Assembly (NCBI GenBank): GCA_016235445.1 | Contig: JACRLB010000015.1 | Coordinates: 186,001 to 250,000 of the forward strand | Direction of reading: 5' to 3' | Source: Chloroflexota bacterium | Lineage (GTDB): Bacteria > Chloroflexota > Anaerolineae > Anaerolineales > Villigracilaceae | DNA length: 64,000 bases | In this document: in pieces, positions 490 through 36,428 of the stretch | How the letters are laid out: the number at the start of each line of letters is the position of its first letter | Numbering within the stretch: position 1 is the stretch's first letter | The notes under the pieces: generated by a model | Told to the model about the DNA's origin: nothing | What the model saw: only the letters and a program-made list of their open reading frames with translations | Database searches by the model: none | Translations under genes and position numbers: made by a program

Positions 490-1929
490 CTATTCAGGGA
501 TGAGTGTCCAGCCGGGGCGGGCTTTGAACTTCCACATAAAGGTGTGATGGAGCATGAATTTCATCCACGCGCCGCTGACGCCCATCTCGAGGTGGGATGT
601 GAAAAGGTCGCGCCCGAATTCGTTTTGGTATTTTTTACGGTCAGGCACCACGGGGCGCATCACGATGGTGACGGCGTTGCCATCCCAAAGTGAGTCGCCC
701 ATGCTGGCGATGCAGGCGGCTACCATTTCGGTCATGGGTTCGCTGTGGGTGGTCTTGCCGGTTTCGATCAGGTCGGCGATGTTCAGGGCCACCAATCGTC
801 CGATTACGCCGCTGACCATGCCGGTGCGCGGCGGAGCTGGGGCAATGAGCAGGTTGTTCTTGTTGGTGAACGGCTTGGAGATGGGCCCGGGCGGCGCAAA
901 TGCAATGCCCGCCGCGAAGACGTTTGGGTAGGCGGGAGTCTGATAGGTGGAGGGCCATGCCTCAGGCGTTTGAGCAAGCTCGGGGTAGGGAAGACCGTAT
1001 TTACCGTCCACCAGAACGAAGCCTGCGGGGTTGGTCATTTTGGAGGTGATATCCTCGCCGTTTTTGTTGACGTACTTGAAGGGCTGTCCCTTGAACGCGG
1101 GGATGAGCATGGCAAAATCGAAATCGGTTGTGCCTTCGTCTCCCTCGTAGTTCTGCCAGTGGATTTTGCCTTCCTCCACTTTTGTAACCCCGGTTTGAAC
1201 TTGATAGCGAATGCCGTGATCGTTGAACACGGATTGGATAAATTCTTCGCTTCGCATCACGTGGCCGTTGCGTTTGATCTGCACGCCGTTGACGCCGAAA
1301 TCTCCGAGCAACGGTTCGTTGGAAAGCCAGAGGATATCCGCTTTGTCGCGCAGTCCCTTTTTGACCAGGTCCTTGTGTACGTTGACGATGTACTCGAATG
1401 CCGCGCCCTGACAGGTGGCGCCGGGGTGACCGGTGCCAATAACCATCTTCACGGTCTCGCCTTTTTTCATGCGCTCACACATTGCGAGGTAGGAATCCCG
1501 CGTTTTGACGGCGTGCGGCAGGGAGCAGATCGAGTGGGTGAATCCGTTTTCGGGGCCGAGGCCGGGCGTGCCGGCAAAGTTTAGGAGTGGCCCGGGCGCG
1601 ATCACAAGGTAGTCATAGTCCAGGCGGATTTCATTGCCCGTGCCGACTTCCTCGCCCAGCACGTATTGGTCGCCGGCATCGGGGTGAATTTCCTTTGCGG
1701 CGGCGTGGACGAACCGCACATTTTTGCGGTCGTATACTGGTTTGAGTTTGAAGATGGTCTGCTCTGGCTTCATGTGCCCCACGCCCAGCCATACCCAGGA
1801 GGGAAGATAACTAAACACGTCGCGATTGCTGATGACCGTGATCTCATGTTTTTTGCCGAGTTTGCTTCCGAGATACAATGCCGCAGTATGCCCGGCAAAC
1901 CCCGCGCCAATTACAACAACTTTTGCCAT
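490..1929 (-). CDS. sqr: Sulfide:quinone oxidoreductase-like FAD protein
   Basis: This 479-residue flavoprotein of the two-dinucleotide-binding-domain family probably oxidises sulfide and passes electrons to membrane quinone. Residues 5-13 (VIGAGFAGH) form the FAD Rossmann motif. Three cysteines match those used by SQR enzymes: Cys135 (SICSLPHA), Cys173 (GATCQGAAFE) and Cys406 (AACIASMGD). All three are kept, which favours true SQR over NADH dehydrogenase type II or flavocytochrome c. The C-terminal region (about 410-479) is the amphipathic membrane-anchoring part of such enzymes. The gene is followed by a coupled 42-residue gene and a terminator. Its start is ATG at 1929 with AAGGAGAAAATG upstream. 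The substrate is inferred. The SQR subtype is not resolved here, and a polysulfide or other thiol-linked reaction is possible. Confidence 0.82.
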   Translation of the reverse strand: MAKVVVIGAGFAGHTAALYLGSKLGKKHEITVISNRDVFSYLPSWVWLGVGHMKPEQTIFKLKPVYDRKNVRFVHAAAKEIHPDAGDQYVLGEEVGTGNEIRLDYDYLVIAPGPLLNFAGTPGLGPENGFTHSICSLPHAVKTRDSYLAMCERMKKGETVKMVIGTGHPGATCQGAAFEYIVNVHKDLVKKGLRDKADILWLSNEPLLGDFGVNGVQIKRNGHVMRSEEFIQSVFNDHGIRYQVQTGVTKVEEGKIHWQNYEGDEGTTDFDFAMLIPAFKGQPFKYVNKNGEDITSKMTNPAGFVLVDGKYGLPYPELAQTPEAWPSTYQTPAYPNVFAAGIAFAPPGPISKPFTNKNNLLIAPAPPRTGMVSGVIGRLVALNIADLIETGKTTHSEPMTEMVAACIASMGDSLWDGNAVTIVMRPVVPDRKKYQNEFGRDLFTSHLEMGVSGAWMKFMLHHTFMWKFKARPGWTLIPE

Positions 1930-2460: not shown

Positions 2461-2886
2461 TTACTTTGGATTTGGGTATGCAGTCTCTGTGCCGGGGGTG
2501 TCAACCCCGTCAATGGAGCGTGTGCCGTATAACTCTCCGTTGACAGTAACGGTGTAGCTCGCTATTCCAGAGACGTTCTGATCTGTCCCCGAAACGCTAT
2601 GCCAAGACACTGCTAATTGATTTCCTTCGAGCGTGCCTGTGCCCACATGAATGCCGCCCGAGATCAGCCATTGCAGTTCGTATTCATTTGGCTGTCCGCC
2701 TTCCGTGATGGTGAGCGTGCCGCCGTATTGTTCACCCGTTGGGTCAAATGCGTTGAGCGCGTAAGAGCCGATGATGTTCGGCACATTGTCCGCGGGGGCG
2801 TCTGCGCCAAGCGGGCCGGGTTTGTTGCGTCCGCAAGCCGAGAGAGTGAGGGCGAGTAATAAAATTAAGATATTGATTCGTTTCAT
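2461..2886 (-). CDS. Small lipoprotein of unknown function
   Basis: This 141-residue protein has a clear lipoprotein signal: MKRINILILLLALTLSACG, with lipobox LSAC and the lipidated cysteine at 18. The mature part (about residues 40-141) is rich in Gly, Thr and beta-prone stretches (YGGTLTITEGG, YTVTVNGELYGT), consistent with a small beta-barrel or lipocalin-like sheet. It is the last gene after the cytochrome b fusion, separated from it by 54 bases that hold a long perfect hairpin. It may therefore be read through at low level or from its own start. I do not recognise the family. A role near the respiratory chain is only suggested by position. Confidence 0.75.
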   Translation of the reverse strand: MKRINILILLLALTLSACGRNKPGPLGADAPADNVPNIIGSYALNAFDPTGEQYGGTLTITEGGQPNEYELQWLISGGIHVGTGTLEGNQLAVSWHSVSGTDQNVSGIASYTVTVNGELYGTRSIDGVDTPGTETAYPNPK

Positions 2887-2940: not shown

Positions 2941-5277
2941 TTATTCTTCTTCCATCGTCATCAGGAACGCGATCAAGTCGTTGATCTGTTCTTCGGTGAG
3001 GATACTGCCAAAGTTTTGGATCATCTGTCCTTCGGGGTAGTCAGGGACAACGAAGGCGTTGGGTTCAACGATGGACTGACGCAGGTATTCTTCTGCCGTC
3101 ATGCCGGGGATGCGCTCTGCCGCGCGGGTGGCAATTCCGTAAAAGGATGGGCCGATGATCTTCTCATTTTTTTCAAGCGAGTGGCAAATACGACAGCCTG
3201 CGTTCACCCCTGAAGCAGTTTCGTAGTAAAGCTGTTCGCCTGCCACAGGGTCGGGGATGTGCATGTCGCGGAAATTGATCGTCAATGATTGGCGCGGTTC
3301 GAGGGTGATGGTTTCGTCGAACAGAATTTGTTCGATGCTTTCATCCGCGCGGTCGTACATTTTGATGGTGATGTGATGCCTGCCAACAGGCAGTTGAATT
3401 TGCTCGAAGATGCGCGCCCCCTGATTGATGTGATTATCCGTGGCGGCGTAGGTTTCATCGAAAACGAGTTCGCCGTTTACCGTCAGCGTGAGGCGGGTGG
3501 GATGGGTAAGATCAGGTTCGGGCGGGGTGAGAGGCGTCACGTCATGGATGGCGTAGCCGCTGTGATGAGTCATCTGAATCGCCAGCGTGGCTGAATCTGC
3601 ATTGAAGAATCGAGTCGGCATATCGCTCAGCCAGATTTGAAATGCGGTGACGATTGCCATGACGCCGAGCAAGGGGACGATAAAACGAAGATGCGATTTG
3701 TTCGGCGTGAACGCAAAAGCATTCGCCTCAGACTTAATCTGTGAGTTGATTGCCTTGCCAAAATCATTCGGCGCCGCCCAGGCTGTGTGAACGCGCGAAA
3801 TGAAATTTTGCTTGAGCTTTGGAAGCCGCTCGCCAGTGACGCGCTCATTTAGCCATGTGTTGCCTTCGCGGTTGGCGCAATCTTCGGGCGGACAGCCGAT
3901 GAATTGAACGCCGCTTGCGCCTGCTTCGAGGGCTTGCGCCGCGAGGTTGGGATTCGCCATCGCAATGCAGGTGAGCGGGACGATGTGGATGTTGGGGTCG
4001 TCGAAGTATTTTGCCGCGCCGTGCAAGGCGTGGCGTTCGCAGGTGAAAACGACTTTTACATTTTTCTTTTCAGCGACTTCGTTGAGAGTAGTTTTCCAAA
4101 GCGGGTCGAGGGGAATGTCGCCAAAGGTGAGGGCGTTGTCGGGACAGCTTCCGATGCAGACGCCGCACGCAACGCATAAATTTGAATCAATCTCCGCCTG
4201 GAATTTGGGACGCGCGCCGTCGGTGCGCGGAATCATTTTGATGGCGAGGTAGGGGCAATCCCTTTCGCAGAGGGTACAGCCGTCGCAGTTGGCTAAATCC
4301 ACTTTGACGGGTGCGAGTTTTTTGGCCTGGGGCATGAGCCAGGGCGCGGCGGTGACGATGCCAACGCTGAAAAGCAGGACGCTCCAAAAAAGGGTTTGCG
4401 GCCCGCGCAGAAAGGTGGGCAGGTAGAATAAATAGAATAAGTCAATGGGGGCCTGGCTGGGCAGTTGCGTGGCGTTGAGCGGCGGCAACATGCCAAGCGG
4501 GAAGAGTGCGGCGGAAAGCAGAAGCACAAAAACGGAGATGAGCATCCAGTATTTGGGGGGCATCCATTTTGCGCGGCTCATGCGTTTGAGGTGCAGCCAG
4601 AGGAAGTAGGCGGTTAGCGCGGAGAGGCCAACGTGAAGGAGGATGACGGTCAGCATGAAGCCCCAGCCATTGCCTGCCGCTTCGCCGACGATAAAGTCTA
4701 CGATGAAGGTTTGTCCGCTTTGGAAACCGTCCAGGATATTGAAGAGGCTTTGGTTCAGGATCTGTGTGCGGTCATCCCAGATCAGCCAGTAGCCTGTGAT
4801 GCCGATGAACCACACAACCACAGCCATGCCAACGCCAGTGACCCAGGCCAGCCAGCGCGGGCCGCGGAAGCGGTCCTGGAAGAAGGTGCGCCATCCATGC
4901 AGGAGTGCGAAGATGACCGCCGCGTCGGATGCGTAGCGGTGCATGGCGCGGATGATGCGCCCAATGAAGTTGGCTTCGATTTCGGATACAGCCTGATAGG
5001 AGATTGCGAATCCGAACGGGTAGAACATGGTCAGGTAGATGCCTGTCAGCAGGATGACGACCAGCAGGAAGATGGTGATCGTGCCCGTGTGATAGAGCGG
5101 GTTGAAGCGCGGGTCTTGGATAAGCCAGTTGACGGGGGCTTCGAGGCGCAGGGAAATGCTCTCGAAGGCATTGAGCAGGCGTCGGCTTGGGGTGTTGAGG
5201 CGGGTTTTCCAATCCACGCTGGGGTTGCGTTCGGAGAGGATATCGGTCAGTTGTTTTTTTTCGGGGGATGATGTCAT
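2941..5277 (-). CDS. Cytochrome b / 2x[4Fe-4S] / FlpD-like / cytochrome c fusion
   Basis: This 778-residue membrane protein has an unusual domain order. Residues 60-235 are a cytochrome b (b6-type) four-helix part. His113/His127 and His215/His229 are each spaced by 14, as in both heme sites of bc complexes. Residues 244-316 resemble the subunit IV part, but the quinone-site PEWY motif is replaced (APIDLFYLFY). Residues 331-378 hold two CxxCxxCxxxC clusters. Residues 408-500 resemble the FlpD/MvhD domain, with Cys413, Cys437, Cys462 and Cys467. A helix at about 531-551 precedes a beta-rich domain (560-675) and a monoheme cytochrome c (C695-x2-C698-H699). No Rieske protein is encoded nearby. 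I infer a quinol-to-cytochrome c route that feeds the neighbouring ba3 oxidase. Exchange with soluble ferredoxin-type donors is the alternative. The start at 5277 has no strong RBS. Confidence 0.85.
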   Translation of the reverse strand: MTSSPEKKQLTDILSERNPSVDWKTRLNTPSRRLLNAFESISLRLEAPVNWLIQDPRFNPLYHTGTITIFLLVVILLTGIYLTMFYPFGFAISYQAVSEIEANFIGRIIRAMHRYASDAAVIFALLHGWRTFFQDRFRGPRWLAWVTGVGMAVVVWFIGITGYWLIWDDRTQILNQSLFNILDGFQSGQTFIVDFIVGEAAGNGWGFMLTVILLHVGLSALTAYFLWLHLKRMSRAKWMPPKYWMLISVFVLLLSAALFPLGMLPPLNATQLPSQAPIDLFYLFYLPTFLRGPQTLFWSVLLFSVGIVTAAPWLMPQAKKLAPVKVDLANCDGCTLCERDCPYLAIKMIPRTDGARPKFQAEIDSNLCVACGVCIGSCPDNALTFGDIPLDPLWKTTLNEVAEKKNVKVVFTCERHALHGAAKYFDDPNIHIVPLTCIAMANPNLAAQALEAGASGVQFIGCPPEDCANREGNTWLNERVTGERLPKLKQNFISRVHTAWAAPNDFGKAINSQIKSEANAFAFTPNKSHLRFIVPLLGVMAIVTAFQIWLSDMPTRFFNADSATLAIQMTHHSGYAIHDVTPLTPPEPDLTHPTRLTLTVNGELVFDETYAATDNHINQGARIFEQIQLPVGRHHITIKMYDRADESIEQILFDETITLEPRQSLTINFRDMHIPDPVAGEQLYYETASGVNAGCRICHSLEKNEKIIGPSFYGIATRAAERIPGMTAEEYLRQSIVEPNAFVVPDYPEGQMIQNFGSILTEEQINDLIAFLMTMEEE

Positions 5278-5413: not shown

Positions 5414-7063
5414 CTACCAGACTCGGAAGCCGGGGGAGGTGAGGGCGATGTTCTTGATCATGTCGAAGAGGACGGGTCCGTAAACGAGAACGATCAAAGC
5501 AAGCGAGCCGTAGATCCACGGAGCCCAGCGGTCGAGCCAATCTGGGGTGAGGGCGGGGTCTTGCATGGCTTCGGCCATGGGGACTTCCACTTCTTCCGTG
5601 ACCTTTTCCTTGTTCAAGGCGGTCTTGAGCATGACGGTGAGGTAGAGCGCGCCGCTGATGAAGAGGATCGCGCCGCCCACGCCGACCTGGAAGAGGCGGC
5701 TGTTCCATTCAGCAGGAACGTAGGGAGCCAGGCCGAGCGGTACGCGGCGGGGAGCGCCTTGCAGGCCGACAATGTGCATGGCATTGGAGAAGATGATCAT
5801 GCCGATGAACCAGGTCCAGGCTTGCGCAACAGCCCACTTGGGATTCCACAGTTTTCTGCCGGTGAGATAGGGCAACAGCCAGTAGGAAATGCCCATGAAG
5901 CTGAGGGTGACGGCTGTGGCCACGGTGAGGTGGAAGTGACCGGGGATGAAGGCGGTATTGTGCAAAACGAGGTTGACGTTGTAGGAAGCATTTGTCAAAC
6001 CGCCGATGCCGCCGAAGAAGAACAGGATGCCAGCGAGAAGCTGGGCGGCAACGGAGGGGTCACTCCAGTTCAATTTGCCGATCCAGGCGAGGGCGCCTTT
6101 GCCACCTTGTTTGCGTCCCGCGTGTTCGAGGGAAGCGACCACGGTGAAGGCGGTCATCATGGACGGGAAGAAGACGCCAAAGGTGAGCATGGAGTGGATG
6201 AACTTCCACACGGGCGGAACGCCGGGGTCCACATACTGGTGATGGAAACCAAGCGGTGTGGAGAGCACAAGGAAGATCCAGAAGGAAAGGCGGGCGAGTG
6301 AATCGCTGAACATCTTGCCGTTGCCAGCCTGTTTGGGGAGCATGGCATACCAGGAGATGTAGGCAGGCAGAAGCCAGAAATACACGAGCGGATGACCCGT
6401 GAACCAGAAGTAGGTGCGGGCCAGTTGCGGATCCACGCCTTCGATCAGCCCAAGCGACCAGGGCAACAGCATGGTGAGAATTTCAACCGCCACGCCAAGC
6501 GTACAAATTTGCCAAAGCAAAGCGGTTAATACGCTCGCAAAAGCAACGAAGGGGGAGCGTACGTTGGGGTTTTCCTTGCGCCATGCGGCGAAGGTCATGA
6601 ACAGCCCCCAGCCTTCCACCCAACTCCCGACCACGACAAGGGTGAGTCCTACGTAGAAAGCCCAGTTCGCTTTGAGCGGGGGATAGAAGGTGAAAAGCAC
6701 GGTGGCTTCGTTGGCAAGGATCGGGATCGCGGCGGCGACAACGCCAACGACCATGAGCCAGAAGCCGACCTTGTTCAAGGTGGGGTTCTTGAGCGGACGC
6801 TTCAAGGCGAAGGTCACATTGAAGGTCAGGAAGCCCATGATGAAGAAGGTTGTCCAAACCAGGGCATTCAAAACGCCGTGAACGGTAAGACCCTGATAGT
6901 AGGATTTGATGAAAGGCTTGAGGTAGGGATAAAAATCCCAGCCTGCATGTTCAAAGGCTTGCAGGGGGCCAAACAAACTGCCGACGGCAAGCGCCAGGAT
7001 GGCCACCAAAAGGTGTGAGCCGATGAATTTCTTTTCGCCAGTGGATAATTGATATTGTTTCAT
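5414..7063 (-). CDS. cbaA: ba3-type (B family) terminal oxidase subunit I
   Basis: This is the 549-residue catalytic subunit of a heme-copper oxidase that reduces O2 to water with electrons from cytochrome c and pumps protons. It matches the Thermus ba3 pattern rather than A-type oxidases. The low-spin heme ligands are His62 (VHGVLNALVW) and His378. The CuB ligands are His224, His274 and His275 (GFHHQYVDPG). The cross-linked Tyr is Tyr228 within GHPLVYFW. The heme a3 ligand is His376 (PGHFHL). The usual D-channel and E286 of A-type enzymes are absent, as expected for the B family. About 13-14 membrane helices are visible. It follows the subunit II gene by 18 bases and is closed by a terminator. 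A cytochrome c-dependent NO reductase is excluded by the CuB/Tyr pattern. Confidence 0.93.
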   Translation of the reverse strand: MKQYQLSTGEKKFIGSHLLVAILALAVGSLFGPLQAFEHAGWDFYPYLKPFIKSYYQGLTVHGVLNALVWTTFFIMGFLTFNVTFALKRPLKNPTLNKVGFWLMVVGVVAAAIPILANEATVLFTFYPPLKANWAFYVGLTLVVVGSWVEGWGLFMTFAAWRKENPNVRSPFVAFASVLTALLWQICTLGVAVEILTMLLPWSLGLIEGVDPQLARTYFWFTGHPLVYFWLLPAYISWYAMLPKQAGNGKMFSDSLARLSFWIFLVLSTPLGFHHQYVDPGVPPVWKFIHSMLTFGVFFPSMMTAFTVVASLEHAGRKQGGKGALAWIGKLNWSDPSVAAQLLAGILFFFGGIGGLTNASYNVNLVLHNTAFIPGHFHLTVATAVTLSFMGISYWLLPYLTGRKLWNPKWAVAQAWTWFIGMIIFSNAMHIVGLQGAPRRVPLGLAPYVPAEWNSRLFQVGVGGAILFISGALYLTVMLKTALNKEKVTEEVEVPMAEAMQDPALTPDWLDRWAPWIYGSLALIVLVYGPVLFDMIKNIALTSPGFRVW

Positions 7064-7081: not shown

Positions 7082-7582
7082 CTATGGCGTAACAACGACT
7101 GCGCCGTACATAACGCCGTGCCCAACGCCGCAGTATTCCGTGCAAATGTAGTTATAGGTGCCGGGGTTCTTGAATGTGATGGTCAACTTGGAAACCTGCC
7201 CGGGCAGAACCATGAAGTTCGCATTTGTATTCTGGATATTGAACCCATGCTGTACATCAGATGAAGTCACATAGAAGGACACGCGGGAACCGACAGGCAC
7301 TGTGATTTCCTTGGGTAGAAATTCCCAGTTCGGAATCGCATGAGCCAAAATATAGGCATCGTATACGCCGGGCGAAACTTCACGCAAACCAGGGTTCGAC
7401 CAGGGGCTGTTGGGGTCGGTTGCCACGGTATTTGGGTCAACGCGCTGTTCGGGCGCAGGGACTTGAATTCCCATGCCAAACGCCGCCACGCTGACCGCCG
7501 TCGCAAATAACACGAGCATGATGGCGCTGAAGATCATCCAGTTGCGCTCGTATCTGTCGATGTGCATGTTTTTGGCGCTCAT
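7082..7582 (-). CDS. cbaB: ba3-type oxidase subunit II (CuA)
   Basis: This 166-residue subunit takes electrons from cytochrome c through a binuclear CuA centre. A single N-terminal membrane helix (about residues 14-38) is followed by a periplasmic cupredoxin domain. The CuA ligands are His112 (DVQHGFNIQ), Cys147, Cys151, His155 and Met158 (CTEYCGVGHGVMYG). I chose the ATG at 7582 because GGAGG lies seven bases before it and because it overlaps the stop of the upstream subunit IIa gene (ATGA). The frame stays open upstream, but that extension (MDPCRTWRHT) is encoded inside the small gene and is unlikely. Single-helix subunit II is the form expected for ba3 enzymes. Confidence 0.93.
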   Translation of the reverse strand: MSAKNMHIDRYERNWMIFSAIMLVLFATAVSVAAFGMGIQVPAPEQRVDPNTVATDPNSPWSNPGLREVSPGVYDAYILAHAIPNWEFLPKEITVPVGSRVSFYVTSSDVQHGFNIQNTNANFMVLPGQVSKLTITFKNPGTYNYICTEYCGVGHGVMYGAVVVTP

Positions 7583-7719
7583 AGTGTGCCTCCACGTCCG
7601 ACAAGGATCCAATAGATCGTTGCCCAGATTGCGATGAGTGTGATGACAAAGATCGTCAAAACCGCGATCGTGCCAGTCGGGCGAAACTCATCATCGTCGT
7701 CTTTATCTTTTTTCGCCAT
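7579..7719 (-). CDS. cbaD: ba3-type oxidase subunit IIa (single-helix)
   Basis: This 46-residue protein starts MAKKDKDDDDEFRPTGTIAV, followed by one hydrophobic helix (about residues 17-40) and a short tail GRGGTL. It overlaps subunit II by ATGA, and AGGAGAATG precedes its start. Thermus ba3 oxidase has a comparable one-helix subunit IIa that supplies the helix missing from subunit II, and the position directly before subunit II fits. The acidic N-terminus would face the cytoplasm. It is easy to miss by length cut-offs. The name follows context and topology rather than strong sequence identity. Confidence 0.85.
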   Translation of the reverse strand: MAKKDKDDDDEFRPTGTIAVLTIFVITLIAIWATIYWILVGRGGTL

Positions 7720-7828: not shown

Positions 7829-8419
7829 TTATTGCTTTAGCATGTACTTCAGATCATCGGCGATATCTTTGGAGGTCACGCCGAATGGAAATACCAGTTT
7901 CAAGTAACCCTCACGGTCGATTACCAGTAAAGTGGCGGTATGGTCTATCAAGTAACCGGAGGCCGCACTACCCACGTGCTTTTCATAAAAGATGCCGTAC
8001 AGGGATGTAACTGCCGCCAGTTGTTCCTGCGAGCCGGTGATACCAATAAACGAAGGGTGAAAGTGAGCCACATATTCAGCCAGCTTTTCGGGAGTGTCGC
8101 GTTCGGGGTCGAGGGAGATCATCAGAAGTTGGATATCCTCTGCCTGGCTGTCGCTCATACTGCGCAAAGCCTGGCCGACATTTGCCAATGTGGCGGGGCA
8201 GATATCCGGGCAGAAGATGTAGCCAAAATAGATCAAAACATACCTGCCGCGAAAATCACTCAATGAAACGTCGCCGTTGACGCTGGTGAGGGTGAAATCG
8301 AAAGACGGTTCAGGTGACTGGATGATCGTCCCATGCAGGGCCGGCTGGCGGAAGAAGTAATAGCCTGCGGCCAGTCCCAAGATTATAACGAGAATGCTGA
8401 GTAGGATTTTTGTTTTCAT
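7829..8419 (-). CDS. SCO1/SenC family copper chaperone
   Basis: This 196-residue membrane-anchored thioredoxin-fold protein probably delivers copper to the CuA site of the neighbouring oxidase or reduces its cysteines. An N-terminal helix (residues 5-23) acts as anchor. The copper ligands are Cys70 and Cys74 (FCPDICP) and His160 (LIDHTATLLV), all present and at the usual spacing. It is in the same direction as the oxidase genes, with about 110 bases between its end and the subunit IIa gene. That gap may carry an internal promoter or RNA processing site. Length and motif are typical of SCO proteins. Confidence 0.92.
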   Translation of the reverse strand: MKTKILLSILVIILGLAAGYYFFRQPALHGTIIQSPEPSFDFTLTSVNGDVSLSDFRGRYVLIYFGYIFCPDICPATLANVGQALRSMSDSQAEDIQLLMISLDPERDTPEKLAEYVAHFHPSFIGITGSQEQLAAVTSLYGIFYEKHVGSAASGYLIDHTATLLVIDREGYLKLVFPFGVTSKDIADDLKYMLKQ

Positions 8420-8438: not shown

Positions 8439-9113
8439 TTACGGCGCGTAACAAAGGAATAAATGCGCGGCTTCGTAGGCCACTTTTTGAGGGCCGCTGG
8501 AGTTTTGAACTTCATCTGCCAGTACGCTGATGTGACGCAGGATGCGGTCAGCGGTGGAGACTTCGGTCTGGTATTTATATTCGCCGCGGATAATGCCCCA
8601 TCCATCCACCAAAACGAAGGACGGGTCGAATGTGAAGCTGTTGTCGGGGTTTTTTTCGTAGTAGGCATGAAAGCCCGAGCCGATGATCGTTTTTAGCAGG
8701 GTTTCATTTGGCGAGGTGACAAATTTCCATTGATCGGTGTCTGCGTCGATGCTTTCGGCGTGGGCGCGTAACACAAGCGGAGAGTCGATTTGCGGGTCAA
8801 AGGATATGGTGATGAAGCTCATCTTTGTTTCGCCGAGGTCGGCTTCGCTCAGCCGTGACTGGATTTCCTGCATGGTTTTGTCTATATCGTGGCAGGGGCT
8901 GGGACAATGGGTGTAGGTGAAGGTGTAGAGAACCATTTGCCCGCGTACATCTTCGTTGGTCAGGCGCATCCAGTCCTGGTCGAGCATGTCAAAGGCGGGG
9001 GAGAGGCGGATGCGCGGTAATACCTGGATGGGTTGAAAAATCTTGAAAGCAAAGGCGGAGATAACGATAAGGGCCAGCAGGCTGTAAACGCCGTTTAAAA
9101 GGTATTTGTTCAT
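8439..9113 (-). CDS. SCO-like protein lacking the copper-binding histidine
   Basis: This 224-residue paralog of the next gene has an N-terminal membrane helix (about residues 5-26) and a thioredoxin fold. It keeps Cys70 and Cys74 (HCPSPCHD), but where SCO proteins carry a conserved His the sequence reads FDPSFVLVD, with Pro164 at that place. It ends with an extra HLFLCYAP segment that adds a C-terminal cysteine. I infer a thiol-disulfide role, for example keeping the CuA cysteines or the sister SCO reduced, rather than classical Cu(I) handover. It overlaps the Rrf2 regulator by ATGA and precedes the canonical SCO by 19 bases, so the three are one transcript. Confidence 0.82.
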   Translation of the reverse strand: MNKYLLNGVYSLLALIVISAFAFKIFQPIQVLPRIRLSPAFDMLDQDWMRLTNEDVRGQMVLYTFTYTHCPSPCHDIDKTMQEIQSRLSEADLGETKMSFITISFDPQIDSPLVLRAHAESIDADTDQWKFVTSPNETLLKTIIGSGFHAYYEKNPDNSFTFDPSFVLVDGWGIIRGEYKYQTEVSTADRILRHISVLADEVQNSSGPQKVAYEAAHLFLCYAP

Positions 9114-9613
9114 GCGGTAACTTTCTCGGGGATGAAAATGTTGTTCGTGACCGAATCAATTTTCAGGGGGTGTGAGGCGTCTTTTTTCAGGTTGGTTTCG
9201 ATCAGGTTGCCTTCTTCGACAAGTTGTTGAAAGGAGACGCGCGCCATTTCGTCGCGCAGGAGGTTCTTTAATCGAACCCATTGGCAATGCACGGGGCATT
9301 TTTTGTCGAACGGGCATTCGCCGGGTTTGAGCACGCAATCGGAAAGGTAAAGCTGGCCCTCGAAATGCTCCACGATTTGCAGGAGGCTGATGTCTTTGGG
9401 CGCGTGTGCCAGGGAGATGCCGCCATCGCGGCCTGCCTGGGTGTGGATGTATCCGCCGCCTGCCAGTTCGGCCACGATGCGCTGTAAGAGGGAGGGGGGA
9501 ATCAACATTTCCCGCCCGATCTCGGATGTGAAAACGCGTTTGCCGGCCTCTTTTTTGGAGAGAGCCAGAATTACTCGCACGGCATAATCGGTTTGTCGGT
9601 TGATTCGGAGCAT
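9110..9613 (-). CDS. Rrf2-family Fe-S transcriptional regulator
   Basis: This 167-residue winged-helix regulator of the IscR/NsrR/RirA group is the first gene of the oxidase operon. The helix-turn-helix covers about residues 20-60 (FTSEIGREMLIPPSLLQRIV). Four cysteines, 93, 100, 106 and 110 (DCVLKPGECPFDKKCPVHC), match in position the cluster ligands of IscR (92/98/104). I prefer the start MLRINRQTDYAVR because it sets this numbering and matches family N-termini. Upstream starts at 9625 or 9649 lack a better RBS. It probably senses NO, O2 or iron state through a [2Fe-2S] or [4Fe-4S] cluster and controls its own operon. Which signal it senses cannot be read from the sequence. Confidence 0.88.
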   Translation of the reverse strand: MLRINRQTDYAVRVILALSKKEAGKRVFTSEIGREMLIPPSLLQRIVAELAGGGYIHTQAGRDGGISLAHAPKDISLLQIVEHFEGQLYLSDCVLKPGECPFDKKCPVHCQWVRLKNLLRDEMARVSFQQLVEEGNLIETNLKKDASHPLKIDSVTNNIFIPEKVTA

Positions 9614-9688
9614 CGCCTTTTCCATTCTAATGTTGAGGACGGGAGTCAATGTTTACGGCTATTGTAAGAATTTATCTTTCCTTTTGGA

Positions 9689-19246: not shown

Positions 19247-19910
19247 AATTGTGAGAACCATCGTTCGATTTATCATGAGCCTGATCGCCGACGTGGAATT
19301 CGTCGGCATGGAAAAATTACCCGCTGGCAATGTACTGCTTGCCGCGAATCATTTGGGGCGTTTGGATACCGCCGTCCTGCTTTGCGCATTCGACCGGGAA
19401 GACATCATCATGGCGGTCGCTGAAAAATACAGGGACCATCCCTTCTTCGGAGCCATTGGCCGCGCCGTGGACGCGATCTGGCTTAACCGATTCGAAGCAG
19501 ACTTTGCCGCATTGCGCGAAATTCTAACGCGGATGCAAAAAGGCGGCTTGATGGTCATTGCCCCTGAAGGCACACGCTCGAAGGCCGAAGCCTTGCAGGA
19601 AGCAAAGATGGGCGCGGCATTTCTGGCCAGCAAAAGCGGCTACCCTGTTTTGCCCGTTGCATTAACAGGCACCGAAGACCGCGGCGTGATCGCCAACTTA
19701 AAAAGATTTCGCCGCTCGAAAATAAGGGCGGTGGCAGGTGAACCGTTTTATATCGAAATCCCCAGGGGCAAAGGGCGCGAAGAAGCCATGCGTCAGGCCA
19801 CAAGCGAGATCATGTGCCGAATTGCTTCCATGCTCCCTGAAAGGTATCGCGGGTATTACAGGGATTTTCCGAGAGTGAAGGAATTATTACAGGGGAAACT
19901 TAACTTTTGA
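19236..19910 (+). CDS. PlsC-family acyltransferase 2
   Basis: This 224-residue paralog of the preceding gene has the same layout: HX4D at His39-Asp44 (NHLGRLD), APEGTRSK, and a C-terminal motif MCRIASMLPERYRGYY that is nearly repeated in the first copy (MCRIAVMLPEKNRGYY). The pair arose by tandem duplication. They may differ in acyl or head-group preference. It overlaps the first gene by 11 bases, and its end overlaps that of the convergent SulP gene by 11 bases. Confidence 0.9.
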   Translation: MKYKIVRTIVRFIMSLIADVEFVGMEKLPAGNVLLAANHLGRLDTAVLLCAFDREDIIMAVAEKYRDHPFFGAIGRAVDAIWLNRFEADFAALREILTRMQKGGLMVIAPEGTRSKAEALQEAKMGAAFLASKSGYPVLPVALTGTEDRGVIANLKRFRRSKIRAVAGEPFYIEIPRGKGREEAMRQATSEIMCRIASMLPERYRGYYRDFPRVKELLQGKLNF

Positions 19911-21576
19911 CTTTCTCGATCTTCCGACAGAACTTACAACCCCGCCTCTCTGCTTCGACGATGGCCTGATCGCTGGACCAAAAGAAATTTTTCTCGCTGA
20001 TGGTTTCCACCAGTCCGCCGCGCTCCATCATTTGCTTTGCATTCTCATGAACACCCGCGAACATGAGCGTGCCGCCCTGTTTGTGGAGCCGCTCGTGCAG
20101 GCGGTGAATGGCTTCGATACCCGCTGTGTCAATCAATGACACCCCGCGCATGGAGAGAATGAGGGCGTGCGTTTCTTTCAGGTCGGCAAAGGCTTCGTTG
20201 AATTGACCCGTTGCCGCGAAGAAGAGCGGGCCAGTCAGAAACGCCACCCGCACGTGTTTGCATTTTCCCTCGGTTTCGATTCCCTTTTGTCTCAATCGCT
20301 TGATGTCCACATCCTGCACGGTGATGTCGATGCTGGCGATTTTGTTGAGGAAGACCGCACCCGCGAGGAACGAGCCGATCAGGATGGCCTGGGTCAGGTC
20401 GAGCACGATGGTCGCGACCATCGTGATGGTGAAAGCGATCATGTCGGTTTTGAAGCGTTTGCCGAAGATGAATTTGATCGCATCCCACTCATTCATGCGG
20501 ACGGCAGTGACCATGAGCACACCTGCCAGCGCAGCCAGGGGAATTCGCGCCATGAGAGGCGCAAGCAGGAACATGGAAAGCAATATTCCAACCGCGTGGA
20601 TAATGCTGACCATGCGAGTCTGTCCGCCTGATTTGATACCCACGCTGGAGCGCGCAATCGCCGCCGTGGCAGGGACTCCGCCGAAGAAGGGGATGACCAT
20701 GTTGCCAATGCCTTGCGCGATGAGCTCTTGATTCGCTTGCAGGCGCACACCCGTCATGTTTGAACCAACCGCACCGCAGAGCAATGACTCCACTGCGCCG
20801 AGGGCGGTGATGGTAAGCGTGGGGGCGACAAAATCGGAGAGGTTGCTGAAAGGAATGTTGGAAATGCTGAGGTGATCGGTGAGGAACAATGTTTGGGGGA
20901 TGGGTCCGATCATTGGGGCCGACCAGTTCAAAGTCCAGTTAAGAAGCGTGGCGAGGATAATTCCCAAAAGCGAAGCAGGGAATCGCGCGTTCCATTTTTT
21001 GGGCATGAACAGCATCGTTCCTACAACAACAAGCCCGAGGAGTAGAGATTGGAGATTGGGGGTGAATCTGCCATCGAAATATCCGAGAATTTTTTGCGCG
21101 GCGGTCTCTGTGGCTGGAGTTTTAATCCCTAAAAAATTATCAATTTGACCGATGAAGATGATGAGCGCAATGCCCGATGTGAAGCCGCTGATGACGGGCG
21201 CGGGAATGAAGGCGATGAAGCGGCCAAGGCGCAGGATGCCAACCACAAGCAGGATCGCGCCTGAAAGCAGACCCGCAACCCAAATCCCCTCCAGCCCGTA
21301 GCGTTGCACAAGCACGATCAACAGCGCAGACATTGCGCCAGTTGGCCCGCTGATCTGATACGGCGCGCCGCCGAGCAAGCCCATGATGATGCCTGCAAGC
21401 ACGGCAGTCACCAACCCCGCCGCCGCGCTTGCGCCCGATGCAACGCCGAACGCCAACGCAAGCGGAAGCGCAACCGCGGCAACAGTGAGCCCTGCGAGCA
21501 GGTCTTGTTGAAATTTGACAAGCGAATAGTTTGAGAACTCGTCTTTGTACAGGCGAGCGAGCGAACGACGTGGCAT
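19900..21576 (-). CDS. SulP-family anion transporter with STAS domain
   Basis: This 558-residue transporter has about 10-12 membrane helices (residues 20-420 of the chosen start) followed by a cytoplasmic STAS domain (about 435-545, LSMRGVSLIDTAGIEAIHRL). SulP proteins carry sulfate, bicarbonate or other anions by proton or sodium symport. I use the ATG at 21576 (MPRRSLARLYKDEF) because TCGGAGAAC lies upstream. A longer frame to 21717 gives a non-membrane, improbable leader. The tail has a GCKFCRK cysteine pair not typical of the family. Two carbonic-anhydrase-like genes follow upstream on the same strand, which makes bicarbonate a candidate substrate. Confidence 0.9.
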   Translation of the reverse strand: MPRRSLARLYKDEFSNYSLVKFQQDLLAGLTVAAVALPLALAFGVASGASAAAGLVTAVLAGIIMGLLGGAPYQISGPTGAMSALLIVLVQRYGLEGIWVAGLLSGAILLVVGILRLGRFIAFIPAPVISGFTSGIALIIFIGQIDNFLGIKTPATETAAQKILGYFDGRFTPNLQSLLLGLVVVGTMLFMPKKWNARFPASLLGIILATLLNWTLNWSAPMIGPIPQTLFLTDHLSISNIPFSNLSDFVAPTLTITALGAVESLLCGAVGSNMTGVRLQANQELIAQGIGNMVIPFFGGVPATAAIARSSVGIKSGGQTRMVSIIHAVGILLSMFLLAPLMARIPLAALAGVLMVTAVRMNEWDAIKFIFGKRFKTDMIAFTITMVATIVLDLTQAILIGSFLAGAVFLNKIASIDITVQDVDIKRLRQKGIETEGKCKHVRVAFLTGPLFFAATGQFNEAFADLKETHALILSMRGVSLIDTAGIEAIHRLHERLHKQGGTLMFAGVHENAKQMMERGGLVETISEKNFFWSSDQAIVEAERRGCKFCRKIEKVKS

Positions 21577-21934
21577 AAGTTGTTCTCCGAAATAAATAGT
21601 TTTACAAAGACTCGCGCCGAGGCAGTCGCTCGGCACACGTGCTCCCCCAGTGCGTCCTTTGTTTAGTGCAGGGATTTTATCACTGATGAAATCCCGATAG
21701 TGAAGCGATTCTTGCATTCTTTGACAAGCAGGTTTTGCCTTCCTTGTACGGCAAAGACAATTTGAATATATATTTGGGAAAATGTATCTGCCATGTCTCC
21801 TCCAAAATAGTAGGTATAAATTTGTTGCTCAATCCCGAAGGGATGAAATAATTATAGAACAAAATAATATTGTGTTTGAACCCCGAAGGGGTGTCATAAT
21901 GTCATCCCTTCGGGATTATTCATCGAAAAGCAGA
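21577..21934. other. Gap with CCCGAAGGG inverted repeat
   Basis: I see no gene. Bases 21831-21917 form an inverted repeat: AATCCCGAAGGGATGA (21831-21846) is matched perfectly by TCATCCCTTCGGGATT (to 21917). The interior holds a second copy of the word (CCCCGAAGGGG). The element lies between the SulP and carbonic-anhydrase-like genes. Confidence 0.65.
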
Positions 21935-22297
21935 CTACGACTTCTGCTCGAAAGTCCCATCCAGATTTAAATAATAAGTATCCACATCGAGGTGGGGGAA
22001 GATGCGGCGGATCTTGTCTTCGGCTTCGAATAAATCTTCTTCATGGTGTTCCTCGGTTCCGCCGGGGCCGTACATGCCGCAATCTTCGTGGTTGATGAGG
22101 ATGACTCGGGATATGCCGTGCAGGCGGGCAGAGATATCCACCTGACGGATGACATCGTACACGTCATAGACGCCGCCAGCCATCACGGCGCGGTCGTAGC
22201 TGGCTTTGCCGAGGTTGGCTTCGAGCCATTGGTTGATGAAGGATTGCAGGCGAAAGTCCATGCAGTGGACGACGATGGCTTCACATTTGTGGGTCAT
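21935..22297 (-). CDS. Minimal beta-carbonic-anhydrase-like protein 1
   Basis: This 120-residue protein has the zinc-site pattern of beta-carbonic anhydrases in compressed form: Cys12-x-Asp14-x-Arg16 (VHCMDFR) and His70-x2-Cys73 (INHEDCG). Classical beta-enzymes are about 200 residues, so this is at the small end. The fold core is present, but the N-terminal arm and C-terminal helices are missing. It may hydrate CO2 or bind another small molecule. It is 12 bases from a paralog with the same motifs. The SulP transporter nearby suggests bicarbonate handling, which is inference only. Confidence 0.75.
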   Translation of the reverse strand: MTHKCEAIVVHCMDFRLQSFINQWLEANLGKASYDRAVMAGGVYDVYDVIRQVDISARLHGISRVILINHEDCGMYGPGGTEEHHEEDLFEAEDKIRRIFPHLDVDTYYLNLDGTFEQKS

Positions 22298-22309
22298 GAG
22301 GTTTCCTTT

Positions 22310-22687
22310 TTATGAAATGGATTCGAACGTTCCTTCCAAATGAAGATAGAACGTTTCAACTTTTAATTTGTGGAACAGGGCGTTGATCTTGGCTTGCGCA
22401 TCTTTCAAATCGCGCTTGTGGCGTTTATAGGTTCCTGCGCGTCCGTAGGCGCGGCAATCTTCGTGATTGATGAGGCAGACGGTTTCAATGGTATGGATTT
22501 TCACAGCAAGCTCAACGTATTTCAGAACCATCTCATAATCATGCACGCCGCCCGCCAGAGAGATGATGTCAAAGTTGTCGTACCCGAAGCGGACGGTGAT
22601 CCACGGTTGGATGAATTTTTGCAGGCGGTAGTCCATGCAATGGACGACAAGTGCATCGCAGTGGATGATGGGTTTTTTAGCTGGCAT
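22310..22687 (-). CDS. Minimal beta-carbonic-anhydrase-like protein 2
   Basis: This 125-residue paralog of the neighbouring gene has Cys17-x-Asp19-x-Arg21 (VHCMDYR) and His75-x2-Cys78 (INHEDCR). After the second zinc motif it has RAYGRAGTYKRHKRD where the other has GMYGPGGTEEHHEED, so the two copies carry opposite charge at the same surface. A heterodimer is therefore conceivable. It is the first of the two genes in transcription. A 112-bp inverted-repeat element lies just upstream (22697-22808). Confidence 0.75.
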   Translation of the reverse strand: MPAKKPIIHCDALVVHCMDYRLQKFIQPWITVRFGYDNFDIISLAGGVHDYEMVLKYVELAVKIHTIETVCLINHEDCRAYGRAGTYKRHKRDLKDAQAKINALFHKLKVETFYLHLEGTFESIS

Positions 22688-31328: not shown

Positions 31329-32732
31329 TTAGTGCCCGCTTGGGCCGGGTGTGCCGTTGAAGATTTCGAGATTGTCGGGGCCTTCAACGATCATGAAGCC
31401 TGCGAGACCGCGTTGTAATCTTGAGAGGGCGTGGTCTACGAGGATGTAGCGGCCAGGCACTTCGAGATGGAATTCGACCACGGTTGCGCCGCCGGGCGGG
31501 ACGAGGGTGGTTTGCACGTCGGTGAGGGGGGCGGCGGTGAGGGAGGCTTGATCGTAGACGCGGTCGAAGATTTCGCCGATAACGTGGAAGGAGGAGGTTA
31601 GGTTGGGGCCGCCGACGCCGAAGAAGATGCGTACGGTTTCGCCGACATTGGCTTTGAGCGGTTTCTGGTCGGTGAGTGCGCCGACTGCGCCGTTGAAGAC
31701 GATGTATTCGGGGTCTTCGTCGAGGAGTTTGGTCACGTCGGTGGTTTGTTTGCCTTTGTCGCCGAATGCGCCGGTGGTGTAGATGTCGCCTTGCATGACG
31801 TAGAATTCGCGGTCAACGGGGGCCAGGCCTTCTTCAGGCTCGACGAGGATGAGTCCGTACATGCCGTTGGAGATATGGTTGGCGACCATCGGGGTGGCGC
31901 AGTGGTAGACGAAGAGACCGACGTTGATGGCTTTGGCGGTGAACATGGTTTCTTTGCCTGGTTCGGTTTGGGTCATTACTGCGCCTCCGCCGGGACCTGT
32001 AACTGCGTGGAAGTCAACGGAGTGATTCATGGTGCTGGTGGTGCTGTTCTTCATGTGGACTTCGATGGTGTCGCCCACGCGCACGCGGACGAAGGGGCCG
32101 GGGACTGCGCCGTTGAAGGTCCAGTAGGTGAAGGTGGTTCCGTCGGCGAGCTGGCCTTCGACTTCGATGGCTTCAAGGTTGACAACAACGGTTGTTGGTT
32201 CGCGCACTGCGAGAGGGGCGGGCAGGTCGGTTGGGTCGCGGACAACGTCTGCGCCAGTGGTGGGCTCCTGAGGAACGGCGGCTGCGGATGATTCGCCGTA
32301 TGCGCCAGCGGGCAATCCATTGAGATAGTTGACCATGGCGTTGACTTCGTCGGTGGTGAGTGTGTCTTTCAATGCGGCAGGCATTACGTTGGAGGTACAT
32401 GCGCCGGTGGGGCATTCAGGCGCGATGAACAAATTGGGGTCGAGAATGGATTCGCGGATGTATTCTTCGGCGGTGGCCGCTTTGCCGCTGTATGAGCCGC
32501 TATTGAAGTGGTCTTTGGCCATCATGCTCACATCCGCCAGGCTGGGGGCAATTACGCCGGCCGCGTTTGGTACACCGGGGATGGCGTGGCAGGTTCCGCA
32601 GGCGCCTTTTTCGAATGCGGCGAGGGTCTCAGCTTCGGAGTAGGTTTTGTCGCTGGCGGCTTTTGCTCCACAAGCGGCGATAAATATAGCGAATAACACA
32701 GCTATGGGAAGGAACTTCACGAACTTTTTCAT
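31329..32732 (-). CDS. nirK: Cytochrome c-NirK fusion lipoprotein (copper nitrite reductase)
   Basis: This 467-residue exported protein probably reduces nitrite to NO. A lipoprotein signal (lipobox IAAC, Cys21) is followed by a monoheme cytochrome c domain (Cys45-Cys48-His49, likely Met117 as axial ligand) and two cupredoxin domains. Type 1 copper ligands are His237, Cys278, His286 and Met291. Type 2 ligands are His242, His277 and His383. The catalytic Asp240 is also present. The cytochrome is at the N-terminus, the reverse of the better-known C-terminal fusions. It would take electrons directly without a separate azurin. It is divergent from the copper operon and has its own terminator. The start at 32732 has GAGGAGAAT upstream. 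Confidence 0.92.
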   Translation of the reverse strand: MKKFVKFLPIAVLFAIFIAACGAKAASDKTYSEAETLAAFEKGACGTCHAIPGVPNAAGVIAPSLADVSMMAKDHFNSGSYSGKAATAEEYIRESILDPNLFIAPECPTGACTSNVMPAALKDTLTTDEVNAMVNYLNGLPAGAYGESSAAAVPQEPTTGADVVRDPTDLPAPLAVREPTTVVVNLEAIEVEGQLADGTTFTYWTFNGAVPGPFVRVRVGDTIEVHMKNSTTSTMNHSVDFHAVTGPGGGAVMTQTEPGKETMFTAKAINVGLFVYHCATPMVANHISNGMYGLILVEPEEGLAPVDREFYVMQGDIYTTGAFGDKGKQTTDVTKLLDEDPEYIVFNGAVGALTDQKPLKANVGETVRIFFGVGGPNLTSSFHVIGEIFDRVYDQASLTAAPLTDVQTTLVPPGGATVVEFHLEVPGRYILVDHALSRLQRGLAGFMIVEGPDNLEIFNGTPGPSGH

Positions 32733-32889
32733 TTTATTTTTATTCTCCTCAAAGGGTTTATATTTGCGCTGTTTCATGGTTGATGAAACAGGGATGTGTT
32801 GTAAGCCTTGTGAAAAACAGCACATTTAACAACAATATATCTTTTTTAAAGGATAATTTCTGTAACTTTTGTCACATTACATTTATCGG
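32733..32889. other. Divergent promoter region between nirK and csoR
   Basis: No gene is seen. The nirK leader contains GAGGAGAATAAAAATAAA before its ATG. The region around 32825-32880 is A/T-rich and would hold the nirK promoter. I see no clear FNR or NnrR site. Confidence 0.4.
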
Positions 32890-32919
32890 TTGACGATTTT
32901 CTGGCGAGAGTGTTATTAT
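32890..32919 (+). promoter_or_regulatory. csoR promoter (TTGACG-N18-TATTAT)
   Basis: TTGACG at 32890-32895 and TATTAT at 32914-32919 are 18 bases apart and just upstream of the CsoR-type operator. This is the best -35/-10 pair of the window. Confidence 0.7.
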
Positions 32920-32928
32920 CGGGATGCC

Positions 32929-32948
32929 TACCCCCCTGGGGGGGGGTA
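32929..32948 (+). promoter_or_regulatory. CsoR-type operator
   Basis: TACCCCCC-T-GGGGGGGGGTA is the G/C-tract pseudo-palindrome bound by copper-sensing CsoR repressors. It lies at the expected transcription start, ten bases after the -10 box. Repression would be released when CsoR binds Cu(I). Confidence 0.75.
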
Positions 32949-32989
32949 AGATGGAAGAGACAGGCCTTATCTGGAAGCGAGAGGTACCC

Positions 32990-33259
32990 ATGGAAAACGA
33001 AAACACGATCCGACGATTGAAAACCGTGGAAGGCCACCTGCGCGGCGTCATCCGCATGGTGGAGGAGGATACATACTGTATTGATGTTATCCGTCAGATT
33101 CAGGCTGTTGAAGCCGCGTTGAATAAGGTCAGCGCCCAGATTTTGGAGGGGCATCTTAATTCCTGTGTCACGACCGCCATTCAGGGTAACGATAAAAAGG
33201 AACGCGAGCGTGTGTTGAAGGAAATCACCGAAGTGTTCGAGATGTCTACGAAAGTGTAA
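32990..33259 (+). CDS. csoR: CsoR-family copper-sensing repressor
   Basis: This 89-residue all-helical repressor has the copper ligand set Cys-His-Cys: Cys in DTYCIDVIRQ, His in LEGHLNSC and Cys four residues after it, as in CsoR. It lacks a DNA-binding domain of HTH type, as usual for the family. The ATG at 32990 begins MENENTIRRLKTVEGHLRG. An earlier ATG at 32951 would add 13 residues not seen in the family. It probably represses the operon csoR-copZ-copA through the operator just upstream. The Cys/His set argues against formaldehyde (FrmR) or nickel (RcnR) sensing. Confidence 0.9.
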   Translation: MENENTIRRLKTVEGHLRGVIRMVEEDTYCIDVIRQIQAVEAALNKVSAQILEGHLNSCVTTAIQGNDKKERERVLKEITEVFEMSTKV

Positions 33260-33368
33260 TCTACGTCCTGAGCGAAGTTGAAGGACATTCGTGACATGCG
33301 CTTCGACTCCGCTCAGCGCGAAGAAAATATCAAAAATAAAAATCATACAACCCAAGGAGAAATAACCC

Positions 33369-33587
33369 ATGACCACAGTTACATATACCGTCCCCGCCAT
33401 TTCCTGCGGACATTGCACCCACACCATCGAAAGCGAAGTGGGCGAATTGCAGGGTGTCCAATCCGTGAAGGCGGCCATTGACACGAAGAAAGTGGAAATC
33501 ACTTTTGATGCGCCCGCGAGCGAGCAGACAATCAAGGCTTTGCTGGCGGAGATCAATTACCCCGCTGAAGGATTAATCACACTGTAG
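33369..33587 (+). CDS. copZ: CopZ-like copper chaperone (HMA domain)
   Basis: This 72-residue heavy-metal-associated domain binds Cu(I) through CGHC (ISCGHCTHTI) and would pass copper to CopA or CsoR. The typical beta-alpha-beta-beta-alpha-beta pattern fills the whole length. AAGGAGAAATAACC precedes the start. It lies between csoR and copA, as in many copper operons. The gap to csoR contains a short palindrome (GAGCGAAGTTGAAG / CTTCGACTCCGCTC), which may be a small repeat. Confidence 0.9.
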   Translation: MTTVTYTVPAISCGHCTHTIESEVGELQGVQSVKAAIDTKKVEITFDAPASEQTIKALLAEINYPAEGLITL

Positions 33588-33652
33588 TTGATGACGGAAC
33601 ACGCTGTACGTAACAAATTCCGTGCAGTGTGTTCCGTTTGTAAGGAATTGAA

Positions 33653-36130: not shown

Positions 36131-36145
36131 AAGCACGTGGATAGG

Positions 36146-36313
36146 TATACTGGGCGCGGCCATGAATTGCGGTTTTCCTTTTTAACGCAAAGTCACAAAG
36201 TCGCAAAGATTCAAGGGCTTTTCCTTCGCGCCTTTGCGACTTGGCGTTAAGAATTTCATTCGACAAAAGCGCAATTTGTTCCCAAAGCGCAATTTGTTCC
36301 CGTGTTCAGTATA
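36146..36313 (+). mobile_element. MITE-like element, TATACTGGGCGCGG ends
   Basis: The left end TATACTGGGCGCGGCCATGAATTGCG is matched imperfectly by an inverted right end ending CAGTATA. The inner stem is built from AACGCAAAG-type words (GCAAAGTCGCAAAG / CTTTGCGACTTGGCG). A relative is at 47512-47725. Confidence 0.65.
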
Positions 36314-36399: not shown

Positions 36400-36428
36400 G
36401 TTCCCCCGTCTACTTCTTCCGAGGCCAA

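Follow-up and report, generated by a model that had tools for sequence, protein, structure and literature searches.

A 64,000-nucleotide stretch of the Chloroflexota bacterium contig JACRLB010000015.1 (hereafter the window) carries, at positions 2941-5277 of the minus strand, a gene for a 778-residue protein that joins a cytochrome b core, two [4Fe-4S] ferredoxin motifs, an FlpD domain, a β-domain and a cytochrome c in one chain, and whose relatives are tightly linked to the genes of a ba3-type oxidase. Our preferred, though tentative, reading is that this protein serves CuA heme-copper enzymes as a dedicated partner for electron delivery and most likely would pass low-potential electrons from the cytosol via its b hemes to cytochrome c. 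The relatives, from Chloroflexota/Anaerolineae and Acidimicrobiia and mostly from metagenome-assembled genomes, share the core in dozens of genomes and split into two clades, which we labeled type A (ba3-linked) and type B (the sister clade).

One chain combines cytochrome b, ferredoxin, FlpD and cytochrome c domains

The gene and its parts, with the evidence for each in brackets, are as follows.

2941-5277, minus strand: whole gene for the cytochrome b / 2x[4Fe-4S] / FlpD / β-domain / cytochrome c protein, 778 residues (open reading frame (ORF), Pfam, motifs, AlphaFold2 (AF2))
4579-5115, minus strand: cytochrome b6-like helices A-D, residues 55-233, with heme ligands His113/His127 and His215/His229 (PF00033, structural match, conservation)
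4336-4554, minus strand: subunit IV-like helices E and F with the ef loop, PEWY absent, Asp279 in 57/59 (AF2 model, structural match, alignment)
4120-4308, minus strand: two [4Fe-4S] ferredoxin motifs, residues 324-386 (Fer4_7/Fer4; eight Cys invariant among 59)
3745-4056, minus strand: FlpD/MvhD-like domain, residues 408-511, with Cys413/437/462/467 (PF02662, E 4e-12; Cys in 59/59)
3625-3699, minus strand: transmembrane helix, residues 527-551, read as helix G (AF2 helix and cytochrome b structural alignments)
3265-3594, minus strand: β-domain, residues 562-671, without clear homolog (AF2 models; probably on the outer side, as judged from the fold)
2953-3249, minus strand: monoheme cytochrome c domain, residues 677-775 (structural match)

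The ORF runs from an ATG at 5277 to the end of its stop codon at 2941, with zero internal stops. A first-pass annotation of the window had described a single chain with heme histidine pairs 113/127 and 215/229, two [4Fe-4S] motifs, an FlpD domain that keeps four cysteines and a C-terminal CxxCH. All of these motifs were located at the residues named, in an intact frame, and Pfam matches bear the domains out: Cytochrome_B (E 6e-14, residues 57-231), Fer4_7 (4e-8, two Fer4 motifs, residues 324-384), FlpD (4e-12, residues 413-508) and Cytochrom_C (5e-5, residues 680-775). Among NCBIfam models PRK03735 (cytochrome b6) matches best, at a score far under its cut-off. The window protein was aligned with 58 relatives chosen by hand from 72 parsed members (alignment A2, 59 type A rows), to which all counts out of 59 refer. 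Because each of the 59 proteins matches Cytochrome_B, FlpD and Fer4, the combination is neither chance nor a chimera. The annotation had allowed that the frame might be an assembly join of two genes; such a join, or a pseudogene, is ruled out to near certainty by the open frame and by the identical architecture in dozens of independent genomes.

The AF2 model of the 778-residue protein, built on the 59-row alignment, has a mean pLDDT of 90.4 and a pTM of 0.86. Structural comparison pairs residues 55-318 with the cytochrome b subunit from bcc complexes of actinobacteria (7qhm_B, Z 20.3, 252 residues, root mean square deviation (rmsd) 3.4). The predicted fold and the conserved ligands are those of a cytochrome b with two bis-His b hemes, as in Rieske/cytochrome b complexes, and the four heme histidines are invariant (59/59). 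The ef loop (columns 259-300) shows Asp279 in 57/59, Leu283 in 59/59 and Pro287 in 57/59, and a PEWY-type Qo motif or consensus is absent from the 59 rows; in the window protein the equivalent loop reads PIDLFYLFYLP, in line with the subunit IV-like part without PEWY that had been annotated. The protein had also been called Rieske-less. Indeed, the window cluster holds no gene for a Rieske [2Fe-2S] subunit, and the sole Rieske-fold match in the genome is a 115-residue soluble ferredoxin-type protein. Because these two defining features, the PEWY motif and the Rieske subunit, were looked for and are absent, we place the family, which is a cytochrome b/b6 variant, outside the Rieske/cytochrome b complexes.

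In many rows of the structural comparison the alignment also takes in a helix ending at about residues 556-562 and runs to approximately residues 342-394 of cytochrome b (e.g. 6adq_B, 8ic2_Ac). The helix after the FlpD domain thus extends the cytochrome b alignment past helix F, and on this basis the F-G loop is predicted to hold the ferredoxin and FlpD domains as an insertion. In cytochrome b this loop faces the cytoplasm and the parts after helix G lie outside. The Fe-S/FlpD module would therefore be cytoplasmic, and the β-domain and cytochrome c would be on the outer side.

The Fe-S ligands, Cys331/334/337/341 and Cys368/371/374/378, are all invariant in the 59 proteins. The FlpD match scores 46.8 bits against a Pfam cut-off of 22.3 and, with its four cysteines kept in 59/59, identifies an FlpD/MvhD protein. 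This domain aligns with the MvhD-type chains 9sw2_D and 5odc_D such that Cys437, Cys462 and Cys467 fall on MvhD cysteines, whereas its first motif is CxxH instead of the CxxC of MvhD. Together, the ferredoxin and FlpD domains resemble the C-terminal part of HdrA2 (69 bits, far under that model's cut-off), and no HdrA-type FAD domain was found among the 18 Pfam matches or the best 25 of 86 NCBIfam matches, which sets the protein apart from HdrA/Qmo.

Modeled separately, residues 552-778 form the β-domain and cytochrome c. The β-domain matched DUF4399 at E 0.0019 only, under the cut-off, and a Foldseek search with its fold returned weak matches alone (CBM20, toxins; low TM-score); in a second structural comparison of residues 552-778 the matches were restricted to the cytochrome c part. 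By contrast, the cytochrome c domain (heme c motif C695xxC698-H699) is structurally closest to its counterpart in a caa3 oxidase, 1w2l (Z 13.2 over 92 residues at rmsd 2.3 and 37% identity), with which the diheme cytochrome Kustd1711 ties.

The type A gene is linked to a ba3 oxidase

The linkage was assessed in a scan of named genomes from which the best 80 loci were kept, and neighbor counts out of 80 refer to these. Gene calling simply took the longest ORFs; since spurious antisense ORFs hid some COX genes, the neighbor counts were taken from tblastn. In 71/80 loci the family gene is preceded, in the same orientation, by a ba3 subunit I gene. The oxidase neighborhood that had been annotated in the window, where COX1 and COX2 lie directly upstream on the same strand, is thus kept in relatives. 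The active site in the 71 loci is of the ba3 type in 69 and of the eNOR type in none, and is cut by a contig end in two. Eight of the nine loci without an upstream ba3 gene start at most 2.6 kb from a contig end.

The same association was evident when 199 genomes from the window's class were sampled. Of the 29 with a close ba3 oxidase (subunit I at least 55% identical), 23 carry type A, against none of the 22 with a distant one (43-54% identity) and one of the 170 without a close ba3; that one genome, in which ba3 was not detected, carries the gene on a 3-kb contig holding little else. A Fisher test on these counts, which were compiled by hand from the search tables, takes the genomes as independent although they are not. 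A phylum sample of 201 genomes gave eight matches at E 1e-40, every one in the window's class.

Eight of the 80 loci gave no parsed family ORF (L060, L067, L070, L071, L075, L082, L096, L107), and L135 (410 residues) was excluded as partial, leaving 71 members in which fusion was scored. Cytochrome c is fused in 44 of these (37/59 in the alignment), and 23 of the 27 unfused members have a cytochrome c gene at most 2.5 kb upstream. Where distance could be measured for fused members, the tblastn matches to ba3 subunit I and to the family gene lie about 30-270 bases apart; unfused members usually have the two separated by a gene for cytochrome c or by a more extended cluster.

SCO1 genes are present in 49/80 type A loci. 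A complete cluster of GltD-like, b6, subunit IV, Rieske and triheme cytochrome c genes is found in 18/80, the Rieske gene there being accompanied by its own b6 and subunit IV genes. Because this full cluster occurs beside the family gene, the family protein does not simply replace a Rieske/cytochrome b complex. The cluster is placed between the ba3 genes and the family gene in L103, L104, L105, L108, L116, L125, L133 and L134. No universal cytosolic partner gene was found among the 80 loci, in which GltD-like matches number 21 and SQR/FCSD-like matches 10.

A sister clade lies beside eNOR-type enzymes

The window genome holds a second copy on contig C39 (G000:C39:81182-83302; L036:8183-10303, minus strand), which is 35% identical over residues 31-385. 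It is without cytochrome c and adjoins an eNOR-type enzyme (HPAQQ), a Cu ATPase and a DsbD_2-family protein. This copy belongs to the paralogous type B clade (SH-aLRT 100), and in a quick tree a single label change separates types A and B. Type B genes lie beside a CuA-type heme-copper enzyme in which the active-site Tyr is replaced by Gln (HPAQQ) in 12/16 loci; the remaining four (L160, L161, L163, L167) show no such enzyme in the stretch covered. The active-site Gln is given as the mark of eNOR in PMC8756737. By a hand count, a Cu ATPase neighbors type B genes in 13/16 loci and a DsbD_2 protein in 11/16, and several clusters are ordered eNORC, eNORB, DsbD_2 protein, Cu ATPase, type B gene.

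This gene order, with its DsbD_2 protein and Cu ATPase, and the SCO1 genes of the type A clusters would also suit a CcoG-like maturation factor that exports cytosolic electrons so that Cu(II) or SCO1 is reduced when CuA and CuB of the oxidase or NO reductase are assembled. As with the cupric reductase CcoG/FixG, described in PMC7558416, the protein combines two [4Fe-4S] motifs in a membrane protein, a C-terminal β-domain and a gene position after the oxidase genes. We consider this role improbable, however. Unlike CcoG/FixG, the 778-residue protein has two b hemes, an FlpD domain whose cysteines are invariant in type A, and a fused cytochrome c that resembles an oxidase-donor domain. Moreover, six close ba3 clusters are without the family gene, which therefore seems unneeded for oxidase assembly there. 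Membership in CcoG/FixG itself was rejected, as FixG_C had no match at E 0.001 in the window genome, the 778-residue protein included; in controls, this model matched 3 of 14 genomes, in one of them over the cut-off.

Proposed electron delivery from the cytosol

From the gene's place after the oxidase genes, the first-pass annotation had suggested either a quinol:cytochrome c or a ferredoxin-linked route, and both stay candidates here. In the mechanism that we favor, the b6/subunit IV core would have been retained as a transmembrane two-heme conduit, while the Rieske protein was lost and PEWY degenerated; a [4Fe-4S]2-FlpD docking module would have been added on the cytoplasmic side and cytochrome c on the outer side. 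Electrons would enter from a cytosolic carrier, either reduced ferredoxin or a soluble dehydrogenase docking on FlpD, and would pass from a [2Fe-2S] cluster through the two [4Fe-4S] clusters to heme bH, heme bL and cytochrome c, and then to CuA of the ba3 oxidase and O2. Such a route would by-pass the quinone pool, and the eNOR-linked paralog may do likewise for NO. We infer the path, its direction and the identity of the donor; entry from the cytosol is favored by the degenerate Qo motif and by the docking role that FlpD modules have for soluble enzymes of the Mvh/Hdr family.

Several observations weigh against this mechanism. Electron flow from inside to outside would oppose the proton-motive force, and the helices of the quinol-oxidizing site (cd1/cd2, ef) are retained. 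Neither an electron donor nor a flavoprotein neighboring every member was found. In type B, the FlpD cysteines are lost in 6/16 rows, all from the window's own family and including the second copy, so the FlpD cluster cannot be essential in those six proteins. Type B is also without a fused cytochrome c; a CxxCH-bearing ORF was present in 4/8 listed type B neighborhoods and in none of the ORFs of the window genome's own type B neighborhood. Within type A, four of the 27 unfused members (L106, L117, L124, L131) are without an upstream cytochrome c gene, two of them near contig ends. The linkage to ba3 is likewise imperfect: the six close ba3 loci without the family gene have COX2-COX1 (and SCO1 genes in 4/6); the full-length fused member L110:9001-11247, with 9 kb on each side, has none of the oxidase neighbors searched for; and the contig-end locus L131 has SCO1 and Rrf2 genes on the opposite strand in its 1.4 kb upstream.

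Possible quinol oxidation and other electron routes

The main rival to cytosolic entry is quinol oxidation at the outer site. The protein would then be a Rieske-free quinol:cytochrome c oxidoreductase in which menaquinol is oxidized at a remodeled outer site (the Asp279 loop and cd1 helix), with electrons passing via cytochrome c to ba3. The Fe-S/FlpD module would connect the hemes to the cytosol, for example for ferredoxin-to-quinone input. Such input has been proposed for cyclic flow through b6f. Consistent with this proposal, the entire b6/subunit IV fold is kept, with helices 169-182 and 186-197 of the AF2 model in the cd1/cd2 place of cytochrome b, Asp279, Leu283 and Pro287 are conserved, and the family is found with oxidases. 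Yet PEWY is absent, the protein contains no Rieske domain and the window genome no bc-type Rieske match, a full Rieske/cytochrome b cluster adjoins the gene in 18/80 loci, and an apparent alternative complex III is already encoded in the genome. On balance, we regard quinol oxidation as less likely than entry from the cytosol.

Other routes were surveyed in 20 family-bearing genomes. A Rieske search matched 16 of these; the four without a Rieske-fold match (G119, G137, G076, G186) are of one genus, have completeness of 87-98%, and all carry type A beside ba3. In the window genome, the genes near the single match, the 115-residue protein, are presumably SUF. NrfD-family proteins were found in 20/20 genomes, and a search with NrfD_2 gave no match anywhere, controls likewise. 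Apparent alternative complex III-like clusters are present in the window genome (G000:C4), G119, G137 and G186, and in G076 such a cluster is readable only in part, spurious antisense ORFs obscuring the rest; the subunits are presumed ones, named by size and motifs without a model. Pfam gave no NrfD match in the 778-residue protein, which is thus not itself an alternative complex III. The idea that it is the cell's sole quinol:cytochrome c reductase was set aside as unlikely because the window genome has the apparent alternative complex III.

The cofactor groups are also ordered so as to permit single-chain bifurcation without a Rieske protein. Quinol would be oxidized at the outer site, one electron going via cytochrome c to ba3 (for the sister clade, in the direction of eNOR) and the second via bL/bH to ferredoxin/FlpD, making a low-potential reductant, and PMC5296606 places an MvhD domain in the bifurcating HdrA2B2C2. 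However, a Rieske-like first acceptor is missing, PEWY is lost, some members no longer have the FlpD cysteines, and given the redox potentials the reaction would be about neutral energetically at best. We thus hold bifurcation to be very improbable.

Comparison with known systems

The protein is like bc1, bcc and b6f in its cytochrome b fold with four heme histidines, its subunit IV-like helices, its cytochrome c part and the adjacent CuA oxidase genes, but differs in that it is a single chain without Rieske or PEWY and with ferredoxin and FlpD domains predicted in the F-G loop. With MvhD/FlpD and HdrA2 it shares an FlpD domain after two [4Fe-4S] motifs and the aligned MvhD cysteines; QmoB is presumably a comparable electron-transfer module. 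Set against these modules, it has no HdrA flavin domain, is built around a membrane cytochrome b, shows CxxH as the first motif of its FlpD domain, and has an oxygen reductase as neighbor in place of a hydrogenase. The likeness of its cytochrome c domain to 1w2l recalls caa3 oxidases and cytochrome c donors, but in caa3 oxidases cytochrome c is joined to subunit II and here to a cytochrome b protein. Separately, by eye, the window genome shows HdrABC-like genes, a separate MvhD-like protein and hydrogenase-like subunits at G000:C7:107843-114812 (L037); the usual FlpD partner system is thus present alongside the 778-residue protein.

In the open full-text literature, the only trace of the family that we found is one row of Table A3 in PMC8756737. 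This row lists RME88945.1 with a PRK03735 cytochrome b6, a DMSOR_beta-like Fe-S part, FlpD and a cytochrome 'C1' homolog, and states neither function, gene context nor family. No characterized enzyme to which this architecture has been assigned, a prospect that the first-pass annotation had raised, was found in that literature; earlier notice in subscription papers or preprints is possible.

Genes around the type A gene in the window

In order of transcription, all on the same strand, the cluster comprises an Rrf2 gene, two SCO1/SenC genes, COX2, COX1, the 778-residue protein gene and a lipoprotein-like gene, with an SQR/FCSD-like flavoprotein gene further on.

9110-9649, minus strand: Rrf2-family regulator, head of the gene cluster (PF02082; TIGR00738 over cut-off)
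8439-9113, minus strand: second SCO1/SenC protein (PF02630, E 2e-16)
7829-8419, minus strand: SCO1/SenC protein (PF02630, E 1e-40)
7082-7612, minus strand: oxidase subunit II, COX2, ORF taken from a TTG, although translation probably starts further in (PF00116)
5414-7063, minus strand: ba3-type (B-family) oxidase subunit I, COX1 (PF00115, E 2e-94; GHPLVYFW site with Tyr)
2461-2886, minus strand: lipoprotein-like conserved gene LP7, matched in 36/80 related loci (Pfam scan, tblastn)
490-1929, minus strand: SQR/FCSD-like flavoprotein, matched in 10/80 related loci (Pyr_redox_2; weak SQR match far under cut-off)

We take the GHPLVYFW site of COX1 to mark a ba3 (B-family) oxidase and the CxxxC of COX2 to be a CuA-like motif. 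The lipoprotein-like gene, whose family is unassigned, is found near the type A gene in relatives, often on the opposite strand. The SQR/FCSD-like flavoprotein could be an electron donor or partner of the 778-residue protein. Elsewhere in the window, positions 31329-37649 bring together genes for a copper ATPase resembling CopA, a membrane protein that looks SafE-like and a 498-residue protein that includes a cytochrome c domain, and at 19900-22687 two small carbonic-anhydrase-like genes precede a SulP-like transporter gene on the same strand (both by eye).

Implications

In many uncultured bacteria the family adjoins O2- or NO-reducing enzymes, to which it probably supplies electrons along a route that we did not find described. 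Characterized cytochrome b/subunit IV complexes hand electrons to cytochrome c via a Rieske protein. Here there is no Rieske protein, the chain carries its own cytochrome c, and a docking module of hydrogenase type is predicted on the cytoplasmic face; the neighboring enzyme is an O2 reductase or, for the sister clade, an NO reductase. If delivery from the cytosol is true, these bacteria would have a respiratory or O2/NO-scavenging route that by-passes quinone. If quinol oxidation is true, the need for the Rieske protein itself would become testable. For such questions, the family makes a defined single chain available.

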